Shown here: positions 13,373-36,737 of the stretch, in pieces
Position numbering within the stretch: the first letter of the stretch is position 1
Layout: every line of letters begins with the position of its first letter
Source: a virus
IMG/VR virus record: IMGVR_UViG_3300037507_000290
Span: 1-37,817 of that record
DNA: 37,817 bases
Reading direction: 5' to 3' (one strand)
Made by a program: the position numbers and the translations under genes
The notes under the pieces: model-generated
What the model saw: the letters and a program-made list of their open reading frames with translations, nothing else
What the model was told of the DNA's origin: nothing
Database searches by the model: none

Positions 13373-13872
13373 TACATTAACTCCCTCATAAGAGCATTAA
13401 CCATTCTCTTGTATGAGTCTGGGGCTCCAGGAATACGTGCTGCATTAAGTAAGTCAGGCAGATAACGCTTGACAAGTTCTACGTTCTCAATCTGACGGCT
13501 GCTTGGGTTAAGACTTGGTGGGATAACTTCACTGCCACGTCCTGAACCGAAATCTACGCCATCGGATATTGGGAGGAACTCTGTTGGCTCTGAATCAAGT
13601 GGTTCAATTTGGCTAAGCAACTGAGACATATCTGGTCTTGGCATCGCTGCTGCTGGATTGGCAGCGTTGGCTGTTGTAGATACGTTGCCACCTTCGCTAA
13701 TCTGTTGTGCCATAGCCGTATTTTCTCCTTGTGCAAATCCAGATGGACGAAGTTGCGTAGCCTTTGCTACCTTCTGCGCCACAAATCTTCCTGACTGACC
13801 ATTACCACCATTAGGAGACACAGTCATTGGGTCGTTCTGTGATGCAGTAGGGCGAAATCCTCCGCTAACCAT
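13372..13872 (-). CDS. Late-cluster hypothetical protein (166 aa)
   Basis: 166 residues. The first 115 or so are low-complexity, rich in Ser, Gly, Asn, Pro and Gln and probably disordered (NPAAAMPRPDMSQLLSQIEP). The last 50 form a helical segment (NVELVKRYLPDLLNAAR, RMVNALMRELM). Such a disordered arm with a short helical tail fits a capsid-lumen or assembly protein. The start shares the TAATG junction with the upstream gene. No family is recognised. Confidence 0.65.
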   Translation of the reverse strand: MVSGGFRPTASQNDPMTVSPNGGNGQSGRFVAQKVAKATQLRPSGFAQGENTAMAQQISEGGNVSTTANAANPAAAMPRPDMSQLLSQIEPLDSEPTEFLPISDGVDFGSGRGSEVIPPSLNPSSRQIENVELVKRYLPDLLNAARIPGAPDSYKRMVNALMRELM

Positions 13873-18355: not shown

Positions 18356-18452
18356 AATATGGGCACTTAAATCTTATATGTCTATATATTATATATTATA
18401 TATATATATTATATATAGTCGCGTAGCCCGCAAGAGGCGGAGCGACGCTCCG

Positions 18453-18474
18453 TATAGATATATAAATATCTATA
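18453..18474. repeat. Perfect 9-bp inverted repeat TATAGATAT/ATATCTATA
   Basis: Two 9-base arms around a 4-base ATAA spacer, directly after a GC-rich 6-bp hairpin (18438-18452). The pair forms a double cruciform or hairpin block in AT-rich DNA. Could be an operator, an origin element or simply a strong RNA hairpin. No function can be read directly. Confidence 0.6.
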
Positions 18475-18484
18475 CATATAAGAT

Positions 18485-18969: not shown

Positions 18970-18998
18970 TTGACACGTTAGGACTTACGGCGTAAAGT
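18970..18998 (+). promoter_or_regulatory. Candidate early promoter, TTGACA-17-TAAAGT
   Basis: A perfect -35 TTGACA (18970-18975), a 17-base spacer and -10 TAAAGT (18993-18998, four of six matches). Transcription would start near 19005, right before a 5' hairpin (19007-19028), the start-associated sequence and the ATG at 19042. It fits recognition by the host housekeeping sigma factor as an immediate-early promoter for the whole plus-strand unit. Confidence 0.6.
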
Positions 18999-19041: not shown

Positions 19042-19263
19042 ATGAGCAAGAAAATCGGTTTAGGAGATTCTGTTAGTTCAATGGAATCCTCGAACTGTTG
19101 CCAGTGCGGGAAGAAAGTCGGAAAGAATCCATTTTGGATTCACCTTTCAAACTCGGGGCGCATTTTGAATCCAAATGAAGAAAATCCATCTTCGCAAGGA
19201 TTCTTTCCAATCGGCTCGGAATGCGCTAAGGGTTTCGAATCCGAAATGCTAGTGAGAAATTAG
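19042..19263 (+). CDS. Small Cys-containing (zinc-ribbon-like) early protein
   Basis: 73 residues, first gene of the early unit. It has NCCQCGKKVGKN with a CxxC-type knuckle (Cys19/20 and Cys22) and a later IGSECAKGF Cys, so metal binding is possible but the usual second CxxC pair is missing. ATG 19042 follows GACAGGAGAA by three bases. Early position suggests a host-takeover role. The last base of its TAG stop is part of stem II of the ribozyme that follows. No family recognised. Confidence 0.7.
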   Translation: MSKKIGLGDSVSSMESSNCCQCGKKVGKNPFWIHLSNSGRILNPNEENPSSQGFFPIGSECAKGFESEMLVRN

Positions 19264-19316
19264 GCGAAACCCCGCAAGGGGTCACGGGTGGAATGGTCTC
19301 CCCCGTCTGATGAGCC
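19263..19316 (+). ncRNA. Hammerhead ribozyme 1 (type II, complete core)
   Basis: Circularly permuted type-II hammerhead. Order: GGC then GAAA (19266-19269); stem III CCCC-GCAA-GGGG (19270-19281) capped by a GNRA loop; UC (19282-19283); stem I ACGGG...CCCGT (19284-19288 with 19302-19306) plus three more pairs after a bulge; CTGATGA (19307-19313); then GCC (19314-19316) closing stem II with GGC (19263-19265). All invariant nucleotides (C3 U4 G5 A6 U7 G8 A9, G12 A13 A14, A15.1-U16.1, C17) are present. Predicted self-cleavage lies between 19283 and 19284. The downstream product starts with stem I, then GACAGGAGAA and the metalloprotease ATG. Stem II is short (3 bp) and begins inside the upstream stop codon. 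Confidence 0.9.
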
Positions 19317-19345
19317 AGACCAAAAGAAAGACAGGAGAAGAAAAA

Positions 19346-19966
19346 ATGAAGACGCAAATCGAATCCAAAACCGAGAACCTATCGGGAATCGTGACCGCCT
19401 TAGAATCGGCTCACGCCCTTATTCAAGAGAAGACAGGCGCACCCCGCGCAACTATCCTAGTCACCCGCAAAACAGGGCGCACGATGGGGCACTTTACTCA
19501 CGCAAAACTATGGAAAGCAGGCGAGGAATCTTTCCACGAGATTATGATATCCGCGAACTATTTCGAGCGCGGGGCGCGGGCTGTCCTTGGCACTCTTCTT
19601 CACGAGGTGGCGCATTCCCTAGACCTAGCAAATGGAATCCAAGGCGTGACGGGCGATGGGTACCATAATAAAAAGTTCAAGCAGACCGCCGAGGCTCTCG
19701 GGCTCACAATCACACAAGCCAAGGGTATCGGGTGGAGCGTGACCGACGTATCCGATGAATGCGCCGATCGATGGGCGGATGCCCTAGCCTTGATTGAGAA
19801 TGCCCTCGCACTTATGGCAGATTCCGAGCAGGCAGGCAAGACACGAGGCAGAAATAAGAATCTATTGAAAGCGGTCTGTGAATGTTCAAGTATCCGCGCA
19901 AGTGCTACAGTTATCGAACAAGGCGTGACCTGTAACAAGTGCGGGCAGGTCTTCCGCAAGGCGTAA
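19346..19966 (+). CDS. SprT-like zinc metalloprotease
   Basis: 206 residues. I start it at ATG 19346, six bases after GACAGGAGAA; an in-frame ATG at 19310 lies inside the hammerhead core (ctgATGag) and is not a plausible start. The zincin motif HEVAH (86-90) with a third ligand in GYHNKKF (His107) gives an active-site zinc, and a C-terminal zinc ribbon has Cys178, Cys180, Cys196 and Cys199 (CEC...CNKCG). This is the SprT/Spartan layout. Spartan-type enzymes cut DNA-bound proteins, and phage homologues of unknown target are common in actinophage early regions. Possible roles are removal of host DNA-bound proteins or protection of replicating phage DNA (inference). Confidence 0.85.
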   Translation: MKTQIESKTENLSGIVTALESAHALIQEKTGAPRATILVTRKTGRTMGHFTHAKLWKAGEESFHEIMISANYFERGARAVLGTLLHEVAHSLDLANGIQGVTGDGYHNKKFKQTAEALGLTITQAKGIGWSVTDVSDECADRWADALALIENALALMADSEQAGKTRGRNKNLLKAVCECSSIRASATVIEQGVTCNKCGQVFRKA

Positions 19967-19970
19967 CACA

Positions 19971-20036
19971 GGGCGAAACCTAGCCCCGAGAAATCGGGGC
20001 GATGGTCTCGGGGTAAATGCCCCGACTGATGAGCCT
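19971..20036 (+). ncRNA. Hammerhead ribozyme 2 (type II, complete core)
   Basis: Same permuted order as ribozyme 1 with different stems, so it is not a simple recent duplicate. GGGC (19971-19974), GAAA (19975-19978), stem III with CC/GG at its base and CCCCGA-GAAA-TCGGGG above an internal loop (19979-20005), UC (20006-20007), a perfect 6-bp stem I TCGGGG-TAAATG-CCCCGA (20008-20025), CTGATGA (20026-20032), then GCCT (20033-20036) pairing with GGGC. Every invariant core base is present. Predicted cleavage is between 20007 and 20008. Downstream lies CTTACGACAGGAGAA and the ATG at 20076; the upstream stop ends at 19966. Confidence 0.92.
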
Positions 20037-20075: not shown

Positions 20076-20525
20076 ATGGAAACAGCCGAGAGAATCAACC
20101 CCTACAAGTGGGCACAAGATAATCTAAGCGCACCCCGCGCCCGCGCATTCTGGCAACAATACCGCGAACTAGAGAACGCGAAACTGTCCGACGAGTGGCG
20201 GGCAGAATGGAAAAAGTGCGACGAGATTAGAATCGCATTCGTTAGGGCAAACCTTGAGCAGACTAACGCAATCGAGCGAGCAACAGAACAAGCCGTGAGC
20301 GCGATTGAAGAAACTATCAGAAGCCTTCAGCAACAGGTCAGAGACCTCAGACAGACCGCCCGCGAGCGTGTCGAGAAGATTCAATCGGAGGTCTATAATC
20401 TCGAGGAGTATAAGGCTCAAGATGAAAAGGTGCGGGAGATGTGGCGACGAGATGACGCAGAGTTTCAGCCTAAGGCTCGAGCCTTGATGGATAAGTATCT
20501 AAAAGCGCAACAAGCGAGCAACTAG
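20076..20525 (+). CDS. Coiled-coil early protein (149 aa)
   Basis: 149 residues, highly charged. Residues about 60-125 form an almost continuous helix with heptad spacing (EQAVSAIEETIRSLQQQVRD, RQTARERVEKIQSEVYNLEE). The N-terminus has NPYKWAQDNLSAPRARAFWQ. Probably an oligomeric coiled coil; no catalytic or DNA-binding motif seen. Flanked by ribozyme 2 upstream and structured element A downstream, so its mRNA is probably made as a separate unit. Function unknown. Confidence 0.75.
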   Translation: METAERINPYKWAQDNLSAPRARAFWQQYRELENAKLSDEWRAEWKKCDEIRIAFVRANLEQTNAIERATEQAVSAIEETIRSLQQQVRDLRQTARERVEKIQSEVYNLEEYKAQDEKVREMWRRDDAEFQPKARALMDKYLKAQQASN

Positions 20526-20532
20526 CACGACA

Positions 20533-20605
20533 GCCCCCGCACCTACAGAGGGCGCAGGTTCAAGACCTAGCGGGGGCGCGACAGGATAGGAAAGCCCTAT
20601 CTTGT
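20533..20605 (+). ncRNA. Unrecognised structured RNA, copy A (possible ribozyme)
   Basis: Lies in the gap between two early genes where the preceding gaps carry hammerheads. An outer stem of 8 bp pairs GCCCCCGC (20533-20540) with GCGGGGGC (20570-20577). Inside are two hairpins: CCT-ACAG-AGG (20542-20551) and AGGT/ACCT (20556-20559 with 20565-20568), with a GCGC linker and a single A before the outer stem closes. A 10-bp hairpin ACAGGATAGG/CCTATCTTGT (20581-20605) follows, then AAGACAGGAGAA. Copy B (20956-21024) keeps all stems with different base pairs and shares ACAGAGGGCG exactly. No U-tract follows, so it is not a terminator. I do not match it to a known ribozyme class. Confidence 0.7.
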
Positions 20606-20786: not shown

Positions 20787-20944
20787 TGGAACTAGACGTG
20801 GCAATCTGGAACGGCAAGAAGAATAAGGTTCTCACAGTTGAAACTTTCAACTCATCAAAAGAGGCTCTCGACTTTCTAAAAGAGGTTCAACTATTGGACA
20901 AGGAGGCGAGCCTCACAGTAAGCGCAATCAGAAAAACCAAGTGA
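20786..20944 (+). CDS. Tiny early protein (52 aa), unknown
   Basis: ATG 20786 shares an A with the upstream TAA; stop TGA 20942-20944. Sequence begins MELDVAIWNGKKNKVLTVET and ends SLTVSAIRKTK. It looks like a small alpha/beta fold (strand, helix SSKEALDFLKEV, strand). There is no independent ribosome-binding site, so translation depends on the upstream gene. Function unknown. Confidence 0.68.
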   Translation: MELDVAIWNGKKNKVLTVETFNSSKEALDFLKEVQLLDKEASLTVSAIRKTK

Positions 20945-20955
20945 GGTAACTCACA

Positions 20956-21024
20956 GCCCCGCACTCTTGACAGAGGGCGAATGGAGCGAGACCATAGCGG
21001 GGCACGAGGCGGAAAGTATCCGCC
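20956..21024 (+). ncRNA. Unrecognised structured RNA, copy B (possible ribozyme)
   Basis: Same design as copy A: outer stem GCCCCGC (20956-20962) with GCGGGGC (20997-21003); hairpin CTCT-TGAC-AGAG (20964-20975); GGCGA linker; hairpin ATGG/CCAT (20981-20984 with 20992-20995); one A; then a following hairpin GGCGGA-AAGTA-TCCGCC (21008-21024) and AAGTAAGACAGGAGAA. Compared with copy A, both inner hairpins and the trailing hairpin changed on both sides and kept pairing, while ACAGAGGGCG (20970-20979) is unchanged. This is what a conserved functional RNA looks like. A conserved GGGCG might also pair with CGCCC/GCCCT in the trailing hairpin, giving a possible switch. Confidence 0.7.
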
Positions 21025-29405: not shown

Positions 29406-29476
29406 TCTCCTGTCGTTAGTTAGTTACATAGCCCCTTTACGGAGGACAGGAGAGTACTCGACATATCGGGGCTATG
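29406..29476 (-). promoter_or_regulatory. Leader with interlocking stems covering the first ribosome-binding site
   Basis: In the minus-strand RNA, CATAGCCCC (29468-29476) can pair perfectly with GGGGCTATG (29427-29435), and TCTCCTGTC (29445-29453) can pair perfectly with GACAGGAGA (29406-29414), the start-associated sequence before ATG 29400. The order is A, B, A', B', so the two 9-bp stems either form a pseudoknot or exclude each other. Pairing B hides the ribosome-binding site of the first nuclease gene. This resembles a translational switch, with ligand or trigger unknown. Confidence 0.7.
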
Positions 29477-33951: not shown

Positions 33952-34905
33952 TTAGTATGTAATTGAACCAGAACCTGTAAATTGATAAATATGATAACTA
34001 CCTGAAGTAGTATATGTAGGTGAACCTGTAGTAGACGCTGCAGCCTGTGTTGCTCGGACAATTATTACTCCGCTTCCTCCAGCACCGCCTGTATTGTTAC
34101 CACTGCTTCCAGTGCCTGAAACCCAAGCACCTCCGCCTCCGCCTCCACCTGTATTGGCAGAACCTGCTGCTCCTGCGGCACCAGCATTTCCTCCGCCACC
34201 TGAGCCACCAGTTCCATTAGTAGTGCTAGTTCCAAAAACCGCACCACCTCCACCGCCCGCTCTAGTAACAGAACTACCAGTTATGGAAGAAGCAACTCCT
34301 GCTCCACCGTTACCACCACCACTAGCACTAGCATTGGCACCAACAGCACTTGCACCACCGCCACCTCCACCAGCATAAGAAGCAGTAGAACCAGTACCAG
34401 AACCACCAGCATAACCTTGGTTAGCAGTACCTGCGGCACCTGCTCCACCAACGGAGCCTGCCTTAAATACACCACCACCACCAGAACCACCAGTGCTTGG
34501 GTCGCGGTTATAAGGTACGCCCTTACCACCACCAGTAGAGGTAATAGTAGTTAATCCAGTTCCTGAAATAGATGAGTTTGAACCATTACCAGCATTATCA
34601 TTATTTACAGCACCACCAGTACCGCCACCACCTACTGTTATGGTATAAGTAGTTCCACCATTAAATGTTACAGTTGATTCTGCGCTTGCTCCACCACCTG
34701 AATTTTCACCAGTGACAGAACATCTGTATCCACCAGCACCTCCACCAGAACCACCAGTAGAACCACCGTCTATAACTCCAGAGGAACCACCACCTGCGCC
34801 GCCTGCAATAATCAAATATTGTATGGTTACAGTAGGGATATAAGCAGTATTGCCAACAAGTAAACTTCCACTTTTAGTTTTATTTTTTACACTAGTAGCA
34901 GCCAT
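33952..34905 (-). CDS. Glycine-rich adhesin-like protein, paralog 3
   Basis: 317 residues. The N-terminus SLLVGNTAYIPTVTIQYLII is shared with the two genes upstream; then runs of Gly-rich repeats (GGAGGYRCSV, GGGGGGAS, GGSGGGGNAG) fill most of the chain; the C-terminus ASTTGSPTYTTSGSYHIYQF then TGSGSITY is also shared. Gly runs of this kind form polyglycine-II helix bundles in known phage adhesins such as S16 gp38. Probably a receptor-binding tip; variable segments would determine specificity. The start overlaps the stop of the previous paralog. Confidence 0.75.
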   Translation of the reverse strand: MAATSVKNKTKSGSLLVGNTAYIPTVTIQYLIIAGGAGGGSSGVIDGGSTGGSGGGAGGYRCSVTGENSGGGASAESTVTFNGGTTYTITVGGGGTGGAVNNDNAGNGSNSSISGTGLTTITSTGGGKGVPYNRDPSTGGSGGGGVFKAGSVGGAGAAGTANQGYAGGSGTGSTASYAGGGGGGASAVGANASASGGGNGGAGVASSITGSSVTRAGGGGGAVFGTSTTNGTGGSGGGGNAGAAGAAGSANTGGGGGGGAWVSGTGSSGNNTGGAGGSGVIIVRATQAAASTTGSPTYTTSGSYHIYQFTGSGSITY

Positions 34906-35747
34906 TAGAAAGTAATGCTCCCGCTTCCTGTAAATTGATAAATGTGATAAATGCCAGATGTTGTATAAGTTGGACTTCCAGTAGTAGATGCTGCTTGTTT
35001 TCTAGCCCTAAGAATAACTACACCACTTCCGCCTGCTGTTCCATTGTAAGTAGGACTTGAATCACTATTTATTCCACCATCACCACCATCGCCAGTATTT
35101 GCGCTACCAGCAACAGGTGATGCGCTACCGCCATCTCCGCCGATTGCTCTAGTTACTGAACTTGCAGTAATAGATGAAGCAACTCCCACGCCACCAACAT
35201 TTTTAGAAGTACCAGTTGCAGTGCCTCCAGCACCACCGCCTGCACCGCCTTGTCCACCAGAAGTATAGTCTCCTCCTGCGTACCCTTGGTTAGCGGTTCC
35301 AGTACCACCTACGCCTGCTTTAAAAGGAGAAGTTCCTTCTAAGGCGCCACCGCCACCAGAACCACCAGATGCACCGTCAAGTTCCGATTGTATATTGCTT
35401 CTAGCATTACCACCCCTGCCGCCACCAGTAGAGGTAGTAGTATTAAATACAGAATTACTACCGCTAGTATTTCTAGCCCCTCCTGCACCTACTGTTACTG
35501 TATAAGAAGTTCCAGTGGTAAATGTAAATATAGACTCAGCAGAAGAACCACCGCCAGATGATTCGCCGACTACAGATGAGCGATAACCGCCTGCTCCACC
35601 ACCTGCACCATAAGCACCACCGCGACCATCTCCTCCGCCCCCACCGCCTGCTATTACAAGATATTCAAGGTCATTTGCTTGATAATAAGCATTACCAACA
35701 AGTAGGCTACGGCTAAAGGTTCCGTTCTTAAGACTTCTGATTGCCAT
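34905..35747 (-). CDS. Glycine-rich adhesin-like protein, paralog 2
   Basis: 280 residues, the shortest of three tandem paralogs. Shares SLLVGNAYY and LVIAGGGGGG at the start and ASTTGSPTYTTSGIYHIYQF at the end. Middle Gly-rich blocks differ from the neighbours (GGRGGNARSNIQ, GGDGGSAS). The pattern of conserved ends and variable middle suggests duplication with diversification of receptor recognition. Confidence 0.75.
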   Translation of the reverse strand: MAIRSLKNGTFSRSLLVGNAYYQANDLEYLVIAGGGGGGDGRGGAYGAGGGAGGYRSSVVGESSGGGSSAESIFTFTTGTSYTVTVGAGGARNTSGSNSVFNTTTSTGGGRGGNARSNIQSELDGASGGSGGGGALEGTSPFKAGVGGTGTANQGYAGGDYTSGGQGGAGGGAGGTATGTSKNVGGVGVASSITASSVTRAIGGDGGSASPVAGSANTGDGGDGGINSDSSPTYNGTAGGSGVVILRARKQAASTTGSPTYTTSGIYHIYQFTGSGSITF

Positions 35748-35756
35748 TAGTACCCC

Positions 35757-36737
35757 TTAAAATGTAATTGAGCCTGAGCCAGTGAATTTGTAATAAGTGT
35801 ATCCACCTGATTCAACTCGTGTTGGTGAACCTGTCGTAGATGCTGCTGTTACGGAACCAGATATTCTTAGTAAAACAATACCGCTTCCACCCGCACCTGA
35901 TGTATAAGTGTAGGTTCCAACTGGATTTCCTCCGCCACCACCACCACCACCTGTGTTGGCGGTTCCAGCAGTTCCAAATGTTGCTGCGCTATTTGCGCGG
36001 ATACCACCTCCACCGCCACCACCGTTACCACCTTTGGAAGGATTATTGCTAGTGGTAACTTCGTAGTAAGAACCACCACCGCCTCCACCGGCAAACCAAT
36101 ATGTACCGCTTACATTCTGACCAGAAGTAGTCGCACTACCCCAAGTTGAGTAAGAAGAAGTTCCTGCTCCGCCAACACCGCCATATAGTGATGCTCCTGC
36201 ACCGCCAGTTGCGGTTGCTCCACCACCGCCTCCACCTGCATAGGTTTCACCAGCAGAATATCCAGCGCCACCATTGCTACCTTGACCCGATGTTCCAGTA
36301 CCTACGCCAGTAGTACCGCTTCCCGCGACACCACCACCGCCACCGCCAGAACCACCATTCTTTCCAGCGCCAGTTGCAACATCGGAGTTAATTACCAAAA
36401 TACCACCACCGCCACCGCCAACTGCGGTTTGAGTGGTTACGCCAGTTCCGCTAAATACAGAATCAGAACCATTGTTTCCTCTGGTTCTGCTTGGAGAGTT
36501 CCCAACTTCCGCGCCACCTGCGCCAACTGTAACTGTGTATGTTACTCCGCCAGTGCAAGTGTTATCTGATTTATACAAAACACCACCAGCACCGCCACCA
36601 CCACCGCGCAAACTTCCACCACTACCGCCACCAGCAATCACTAATGATTCTACGGTGAAAGTTGGGATGTAAGCAGCATTACCAACAAGCAAACTAGACG
36701 GTGATGTATTACCTGTCTTGTAACTTGTGATTGACAT
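35757..36737 (-). CDS. Glycine-rich adhesin-like protein, paralog 1
   Basis: 326 residues. Starts SITSYKTGNTSPSSLLVGNA with AYIPTFTVESLVIAGGGSGG and ends SPTRVESGGYTYYKFTGSGS. Gly-rich blocks (GGGGGGIL, GGSGGGGGGVAGS) alternate with short sequence-unique segments that would be surface loops. Its ATG overlaps the stop of the beta-sandwich gene upstream. The C-terminal sequence is the most diverged of the three copies. Confidence 0.75.
   Translation of the reverse strand: MSITSYKTGNTSPSSLLVGNAAYIPTFTVESLVIAGGGSGGSLRGGGGGAGGVLYKSDNTCTGGVTYTVTVGAGGAEVGNSPSRTRGNNGSDSVFSGTGVTTQTAVGGGGGGILVINSDVATGAGKNGGSGGGGGGVAGSGTTGVGTGTSGQGSNGGAGYSAGETYAGGGGGGATATGGAGASLYGGVGGAGTSSYSTWGSATTSGQNVSGTYWFAGGGGGGSYYEVTTSNNPSKGGNGGGGGGGIRANSAATFGTAGTANTGGGGGGGGNPVGTYTYTSGAGGSGIVLLRISGSVTAASTTGSPTRVESGGYTYYKFTGSGSITF

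Follow-up and report, generated by a model that had tools for sequence, protein, structure and literature searches.

What would a self-cleaving RNA be doing between the first two genes of a phage operon? The window in which this arises is a whole virus record of 37,817 bases carrying a terminase and a portal gene; the presence of a WhiB-type gene (PF02467) makes an actinobacterial host likely, and ARAGORN found no tRNA genes in it. The operon lies on the plus strand, behind a promoter-like site, TTGACA-17-TAAAGT (18970-18998, 10 of 12 positions matching), of a kind found five times in the region as against 2.8 times in shuffled sequence; its genes are probably early, judging by their position and by this match. 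The first encodes a 73 aa protein without a family match (19042-19263, with the UAG stop codon at 19261-19263), the second a SprT-like protein of 206 aa (19346-19966; PF10263 at 25.9 bits against a cut-off of 25.6, PHROG 6361 at E 2.7e-45) and the third a 149 aa protein with weak matches only (20076-20525), all on the plus strand.

Other features of the window were recorded alongside. A leader close to CTTAAGACAGGAGAA is repeated 5' of most plus-strand operon genes between 19030 and 22620, and is reminiscent of the start-associated sequences of some mycobacteriophages. A highly AT-rich stretch with TATATA repeats (18360-18480) separates the divergent gene blocks and is possibly an origin or regulatory region. 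The adjacent genes at 34905-35747 and 35757-36737 each match the glycine-rich domain PF21722, and are probably a tandem pair.

Hammerheads on both sides of the SprT-like gene

The initial annotation had placed a type II hammerhead at 19263-19316 of the plus strand, with the core in permuted order, and this interpretation is supported in its structural particulars. The Rfam family RF02276 (Hammerhead_II), the model by which it had proposed to check the interval, matches 19262-19324 with 42.5 bits against a gathering cut-off of 37 (E 1.5e-5 when the entire window is searched against all of Rfam). The window has no other Rfam match, whether the gathering threshold or an E value of up to 1 is applied, and none of 14 control genomes was matched. 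Read base by base, the element, here termed HH1, has G19263-C19265 paired with G19314-C19316 as stem II, G12-A14 at 19266-19268, a stem III hairpin at 19269-19282, C17 at C19283, a stem I hairpin at 19284-19306 and the CUGAUGA box at 19307-19313. The CUGANGA, GAAA and UH motifs and the three stems, ordered II-III-I-II, are found by both reading and descriptor, and the predicted cut falls between C19283 and A19284, where it had been placed before. The distances from the end of the element to GACAGGAGAA (19330) and to the SprT ATG (19346) are likewise as first given, at 13 nt and 29 nt. The stop codon of gene 1 shares its G with stem II.

Taken alone, HH1 has a fold barely above that of shuffled sequences (z -1.1, with 27 of 200 shuffles as good). 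Across 14 distinct HH1-type copies (alignment A2), 95.4% of cells are in standard pairs and both sides have changed in 9 of the 22 pairs, values that none of 500 shuffles reached for either measure; when the partners are slid against each other, at most 50.5% are paired. A 6 bp pseudoknot between loop I (19294-19299) and the 3' tail (19317-19322), a feature common but not universal in type II hammerheads, is also present on this strand, with 92.9% of cells paired and both sides changed in three of the six pairs. In its permuted order, intact core, closed stems I and III, open stem II and pseudoknot, HH1 is like the phage and prophage hammerheads (RF02276) described in the available text of Perreault 2011 (PMC3088659).

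A second type II hammerhead, missed by the initial annotation, lies just 3' of the SprT gene at 19971-20036, again on the plus strand. In this element, HH2, stem III is interrupted by an internal loop, and the predicted cut is between C20007 and U20008. The core and three stems arranged as in type II are indicated by reading, fold, descriptor and covariation alike: the complete three-stem hammerhead is both the minimum-energy and the centroid structure given by RNAfold, its fold of -34.4 kcal/mol (z -4.3) was equalled by none of 200 shuffles, and the HH2-type class has 100% of cells paired, with changes on both sides in 6 of 18 pairs, in an alignment of 13 copies (A4) that leaves out 5 of the 17 rows of A3, these being misaligned hammerheads with a short stem III, and adds the copy from L015. 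HH2 gives no RF02276 match at E values up to 1 in the window; it is overlapped by a sub-threshold match to the type III hammerhead model (21.2 bits), and with RF02276 the HH2-type copies of relatives reach 23-33 bits. What the curated score sets is a limit of detection, and the ribozyme is not defined by it. A loop I pseudoknot was sought in HH2 by eye, and the pairing fails between relatives. In its split stem III and its position below Rfam detection, HH2 is unlike the hammerheads of Perreault 2011 (PMC3088659), as far as the available text describes them.

Together, the two predicted cuts bound a 724 nt RNA (19284-20007) containing only SprT and its ribosome binding site. We think it probable that HH1 and HH2 cut a polycistronic transcript at both borders of SprT, so producing a single-gene mRNA with ends that are probably protected; the making and protection of single-gene early mRNAs is the most likely role of the pair. 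In the fold, the type II permutation would leave a closed hairpin on either side of each cut. The upstream product would run from the stop codon into the stem III hairpin and carry a 2',3'-cyclic phosphate at its end, whilst the downstream product would begin with a 5'-OH and the stem I hairpin, followed by the ribosome binding site. Each cut would thus supply one gene with a short 3' UTR and the next with a hairpin-led 5' leader, and the hairpin ends probably guard both products from decay. In phage T7, RNase III cuts the early mRNA between genes and leaves structured ends that protect it from decay. The present arrangement is analogous in that an early polycistronic RNA would be cut between genes, although it does not belong to that system and here, unlike at the T7 sites, cleavage would be by the RNA and not by an enzyme of the host.

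The initial annotation had already suggested mRNA processing, from HH1 by itself. That prediction gains from the hammerhead beyond the 3' end of the gene, from the covariation and from the retention of the arrangement in relatives; what has to be changed is the unit, which is a pair of hammerheads. Neither gene-flanking hammerheads in phages nor the idea of processing is new: Perreault 2011 (PMC3088659), the only paper on type II hammerheads in phages that was found in the part of the literature covered, described such hammerheads, with the pseudoknot, flanking single genes in prophages, and already proposed processing. The SprT pair is therefore a new case of a known arrangement. According to the same paper, comparable tandem hammerheads self-cleaved in vitro, one of them also in E. 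coli, and 4 of 18 hammerheads conforming to the consensus were inactive under the conditions used (PMC3088659). As late as 2017, a review called the role of prokaryotic and phage hammerheads an open question, in the portion available (PMC6155905). What seems to be new here is the HH2 subtype with its split stem III, the stop-codon rule and the alternative element that are described below.

Stop codons and hammerheads in related and unrelated viruses

Relatives of the SprT gene were found at 29 loci in IMG/VR, 27 of them close. A descriptor scan found hammerheads in most of the SprT loci, all on the coding strand, against a background of four chance matches in 20 Markov shuffles of the set of about 260 kb. 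The descriptor demands an intact core, and so broken copies cannot be counted. The hammerheads of this clade form two classes, of the HH1 and HH2 types, and in each of the 39 distinct contexts the hammerhead is on the coding strand, preceded by a stop codon and followed by a ribosome binding site.

In 17 of 18 HH1-type contexts, a set that includes one hammerhead (L010) that is HH2-type by sequence and was classed here by the script's rule, the last base of the upstream gene's stop codon is also the first of stem II; the eighteenth has a UAA at the same place, and the upstream genes differ among contexts. In HH2-type contexts the distance varies by 5 nt. Taken to require an ORF stop between -8 and -2 of the GAAA, the rule holds for 35 of 38 hammerheads in the clade, as against 1.3% of random positions, and among the matches listed for other viral contigs it holds for 71 of 123, as against 1.8% of random positions. 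No descriptor match was present in 45 of the other-virus loci, which number at least 120. Amongst the matches listed, there are arrays of type II hammerheads in other viral groups (nine in L106, seven in L116, six in L044 and five in L051), mostly with one at each gene junction and each shortly 3' of a stop codon; Rfam's own cut-off accepts 25 other-virus hammerheads in the 11 loci tested. Recurrence of the rule in other viruses argues for a common role in making mRNA ends. It was not encountered in the part of the literature covered, and the words 'stop codon' are absent from the text of PMC3088659; a stop codon within or beside stem II hence distinguishes these elements from the hammerheads as described there.

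Such closeness would also be expected of a regulated switch, in which a ribosome terminating at the UAG of gene 1 covers stem II and the GAAA, making cutting by HH1 dependent on translation. The fixed placing of the stop codon relative to the GAAA, in all 18 HH1-type contexts and behind different genes, speaks for such gating, as does the similar closeness in other viruses; however, it may merely reflect the minimal 3' UTRs of compact genomes, or modules may be inherited along with their stop codon, and the 5 nt variation in HH2-type distances counts against it. We regard gating by translation as a rather unlikely explanation, and one that is compatible with the release of the SprT mRNA by two cuts, rather than exclusive of it.

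Identical hammerheads precede different genes in different loci (L006, L012 and L014), as might be seen if the elements were mainly short stretches of homology for the shuffling of gene modules, with cleavage secondary or absent. This is improbable in view of the compensatory changes, which preserve the fold whilst the sequence drifts, and of the core positions, which are invariant in the alignments, although the descriptor demanded them.

Exchange with a second element at the gene borders

The proposed single-gene release by a hammerhead pair can be compared across the clade by the elements on either side of SprT. On the 5' side (27 clade loci and the window, n = 28), a hammerhead lies 22-29 nt before the start codon in 14 cases, and six have instead a promoter-like site, identified by a pattern that has no background rate; this site, directly 5' of SprT in relatives lacking the upstream hammerhead, is of the same sequence type as that at the head of the window's operon. 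The remaining eight have neither, three of these (L007, L016 and L028) having a hammerhead one short gene farther upstream. On the 3' side, local tblastn of all the fetched sequence yielded 40 distinct clade junctions: 22 have a hammerhead and 18 another structured element, termed TLE; none has neither. These assignments were made by pattern and eye, not by model. The loci fetched by the SprT protein contributed 17 hammerheads and two TLEs, accounting for all 19 of their junctions. Those fetched by the TLE-B pattern, which is not itself the SprT junction element, added four hammerheads and six TLEs, and those fetched by the TLE-A pattern one hammerhead and ten TLEs; 8 of the 18 TLE junctions are biased, the locus having been fetched by the TLE-A pattern, which describes the very element at that junction. 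In L224 and L211 a TLE was also seen by eye upstream of SprT.

The remote homologues of SprT (below 42% identity; L029, L030 and L201-L207) have neither a hammerhead nor a TLE 3' of the gene. Public phage records gave no DNA match to the SprT region, and remote SprT proteins in 11 of them, all under 60% identity; genome contigs gave five remote relatives, none within the phage clade.

In a tree of the SprT proteins from 40 junction-bearing copies, which has long branches and an arbitrary root, the main hammerhead clade (21 rows, support 100/98) has TLE lineages to either side of it. The presence of hammerheads among TLE-bearing lineages makes the two elements look interchangeable at the SprT border. 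A further hammerhead copy, that of L170, is on a long branch among TLE copies, so two changes between the elements would be needed; with all hammerhead copies constrained together, p = 0.063, which does not exclude a single replacement event. The replacement of one by the other at the same border suggests a common function. This swapping of the downstream partner for a TLE is another departure from the hammerheads in the available text of Perreault 2011 (PMC3088659).

The ends left by hammerhead cleavage, a 5'-OH and a 2',3'-cyclic phosphate, are suited to joining into a circle. With hammerheads in the same orientation on both sides of one gene, the excised SprT RNA could thus become a 724 nt circular mRNA, closed either by the ribozymes or by RtcB of the host. 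Five of the six promoter-type loci have a one-sided element or a downstream TLE, hence no hammerhead pair, and Perreault 2011, in the text available, sought circles and spliced products and found none (PMC3088659); both points make a circle very improbable. It is more improbable still that the hairpins are terminators or mRNA stabilisers without cleavage, strong and directly 3' of stop codons as they are, since no plus-strand terminator-like site between 18300 and 21100 is at either hammerhead and a bare hairpin needs no hammerhead core.

On the question of what such hammerheads are for, the clade offers a means of testing: SprT is always followed by a hammerhead or a TLE, and its 5' end often has a hammerhead or else a promoter. 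The natural swaps are directly comparable because SprT borders carry these alternatives.

Structure and possible function of TLE

The window has two TLEs, both missed by the initial annotation, one before gene 4 and one before gene 6. TLE-A (20533-20577, plus strand) was recognised from its fold and from its match to a model, R1, built from 30 TLE copies (32.2 bits, E 6.4e-5), and is followed by a hairpin at about 20581-20605. TLE-B (20956-21003, plus strand) is supported by covariation and scores 81.8 bits with R1, its copy being in the R1 seed; it has a hairpin before it (20941-20954), which contains the UGA stop codon of gene 5 (20942-20944), and another after it (21008-21024). Each TLE folds into a closing stem of 7-8 bp, a short variable hairpin and a hairpin with a 7 nt loop that is mostly U-[GU]-C-R-A-G-A, and would be a three-way junction with the geometry of a tRNA acceptor and T arm.

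Of 52 candidates, 35 were kept and 17 removed by eye as chance; alignment A5, of 30 copies, leaves out five misaligned A- and C-type rows, both types being in A6. Pairing in the seed alignment extends to 96.7% of cells, and 9 of 16 pairs have changed on both sides; among 65 distinct matches, in an alignment fitted to the model, 97.8% pair and 14 of 16 pairs have such changes. TLE copies are found in L151-L200 and L208-L228. The model has 103 matches in 59 clade loci, with one to three per record in all 16 phage records, as against two weak matches (E about 0.5) in 84 other loci totalling 740 kb, the loci scanned being a part of those fetched; TLE-B is also matched in two unannotated public records (OX376641 and OX376640). 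Relative to the closing stem, the stop codon lies at -6 to -8 in 33 of 89 distinct contexts and at -11, as a UGA within the preceding hairpin, in 27.

Of 65 copies, 58 have 12 nt between the end of the loop and the first base after the closing stem, and seven have 11 nt; 12 nt is also the spacing between the T-loop and the discriminator base of tRNA. An acceptor-like stem and a T-loop are thus found at tRNA spacing. R-C comes next in 64 of 65, followed by G, T or A, not by CCA. A58 is present in 55 of 58 copies without being demanded by the pattern; C56 and R57 were demanded, and their conservation is partly a matter of selection because the fetching patterns fixed part of the loop.

No Rfam family matches TLE at its curated cut-off. 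It was considered as a tRNA gene (ARAGORN, no genes; no tRNA family in Rfam at E values up to 10), as a twister-sister ribozyme (RF02681 absent from all eight phage records at E values up to 10) and as an HDV-like ribozyme (by eye, no strand for an HDV-type P2), with no support for any of the three. Partial resemblances exist all the same. RNase P cleaves tRNA-like structures and polycistronic mRNA, according to the available part of a review (PMC11143913); TLE is like its substrates in the acceptor-like stem of 7-8 bp, the T-loop-like loop and the 12 nt spacing to R-C, and unlike tRNA in having no anticodon arm, no CCA and a bulged A between two stems. The loop G-UGCAAGA-C resembles that of SL4 in twister-sister, given as G29-U30-G31-C32-A33-A34-G35-U36-C37 in the accessible text (PMC5660989), but no L1 core could be made out by eye.

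A tentative reading, somewhat short of an even chance, is that TLE belongs to a kind of RNA-cleavage element not described before, be it a self-cleaving ribozyme or a tRNA mimic for host RNase P, that punctuates early phage operons and is replaced by type II hammerheads at the same gene border. At the later junctions of this operon, and at the SprT junction in relatives, TLEs probably have a role like that of the hammerheads, filled by another route. If TLE is cleaved, its exchange with a ribozyme will have led to a new RNA-processing element; if the reading as a whole is true, a stop codon, a cutting element, a hairpin and a ribosome binding site would make up a general grammar of phage mRNA punctuation. 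The HH2 subtype, TLE and its exchange with hammerheads were not encountered in a literature search of partial coverage. A loose scan for TLE also brought up a 9 bp inverted repeat at 29427-29476 of the window, enclosing a conserved stretch of a sequence type unlike TLE, which is shared with the reverse strand of L173 at about 13773-13816.
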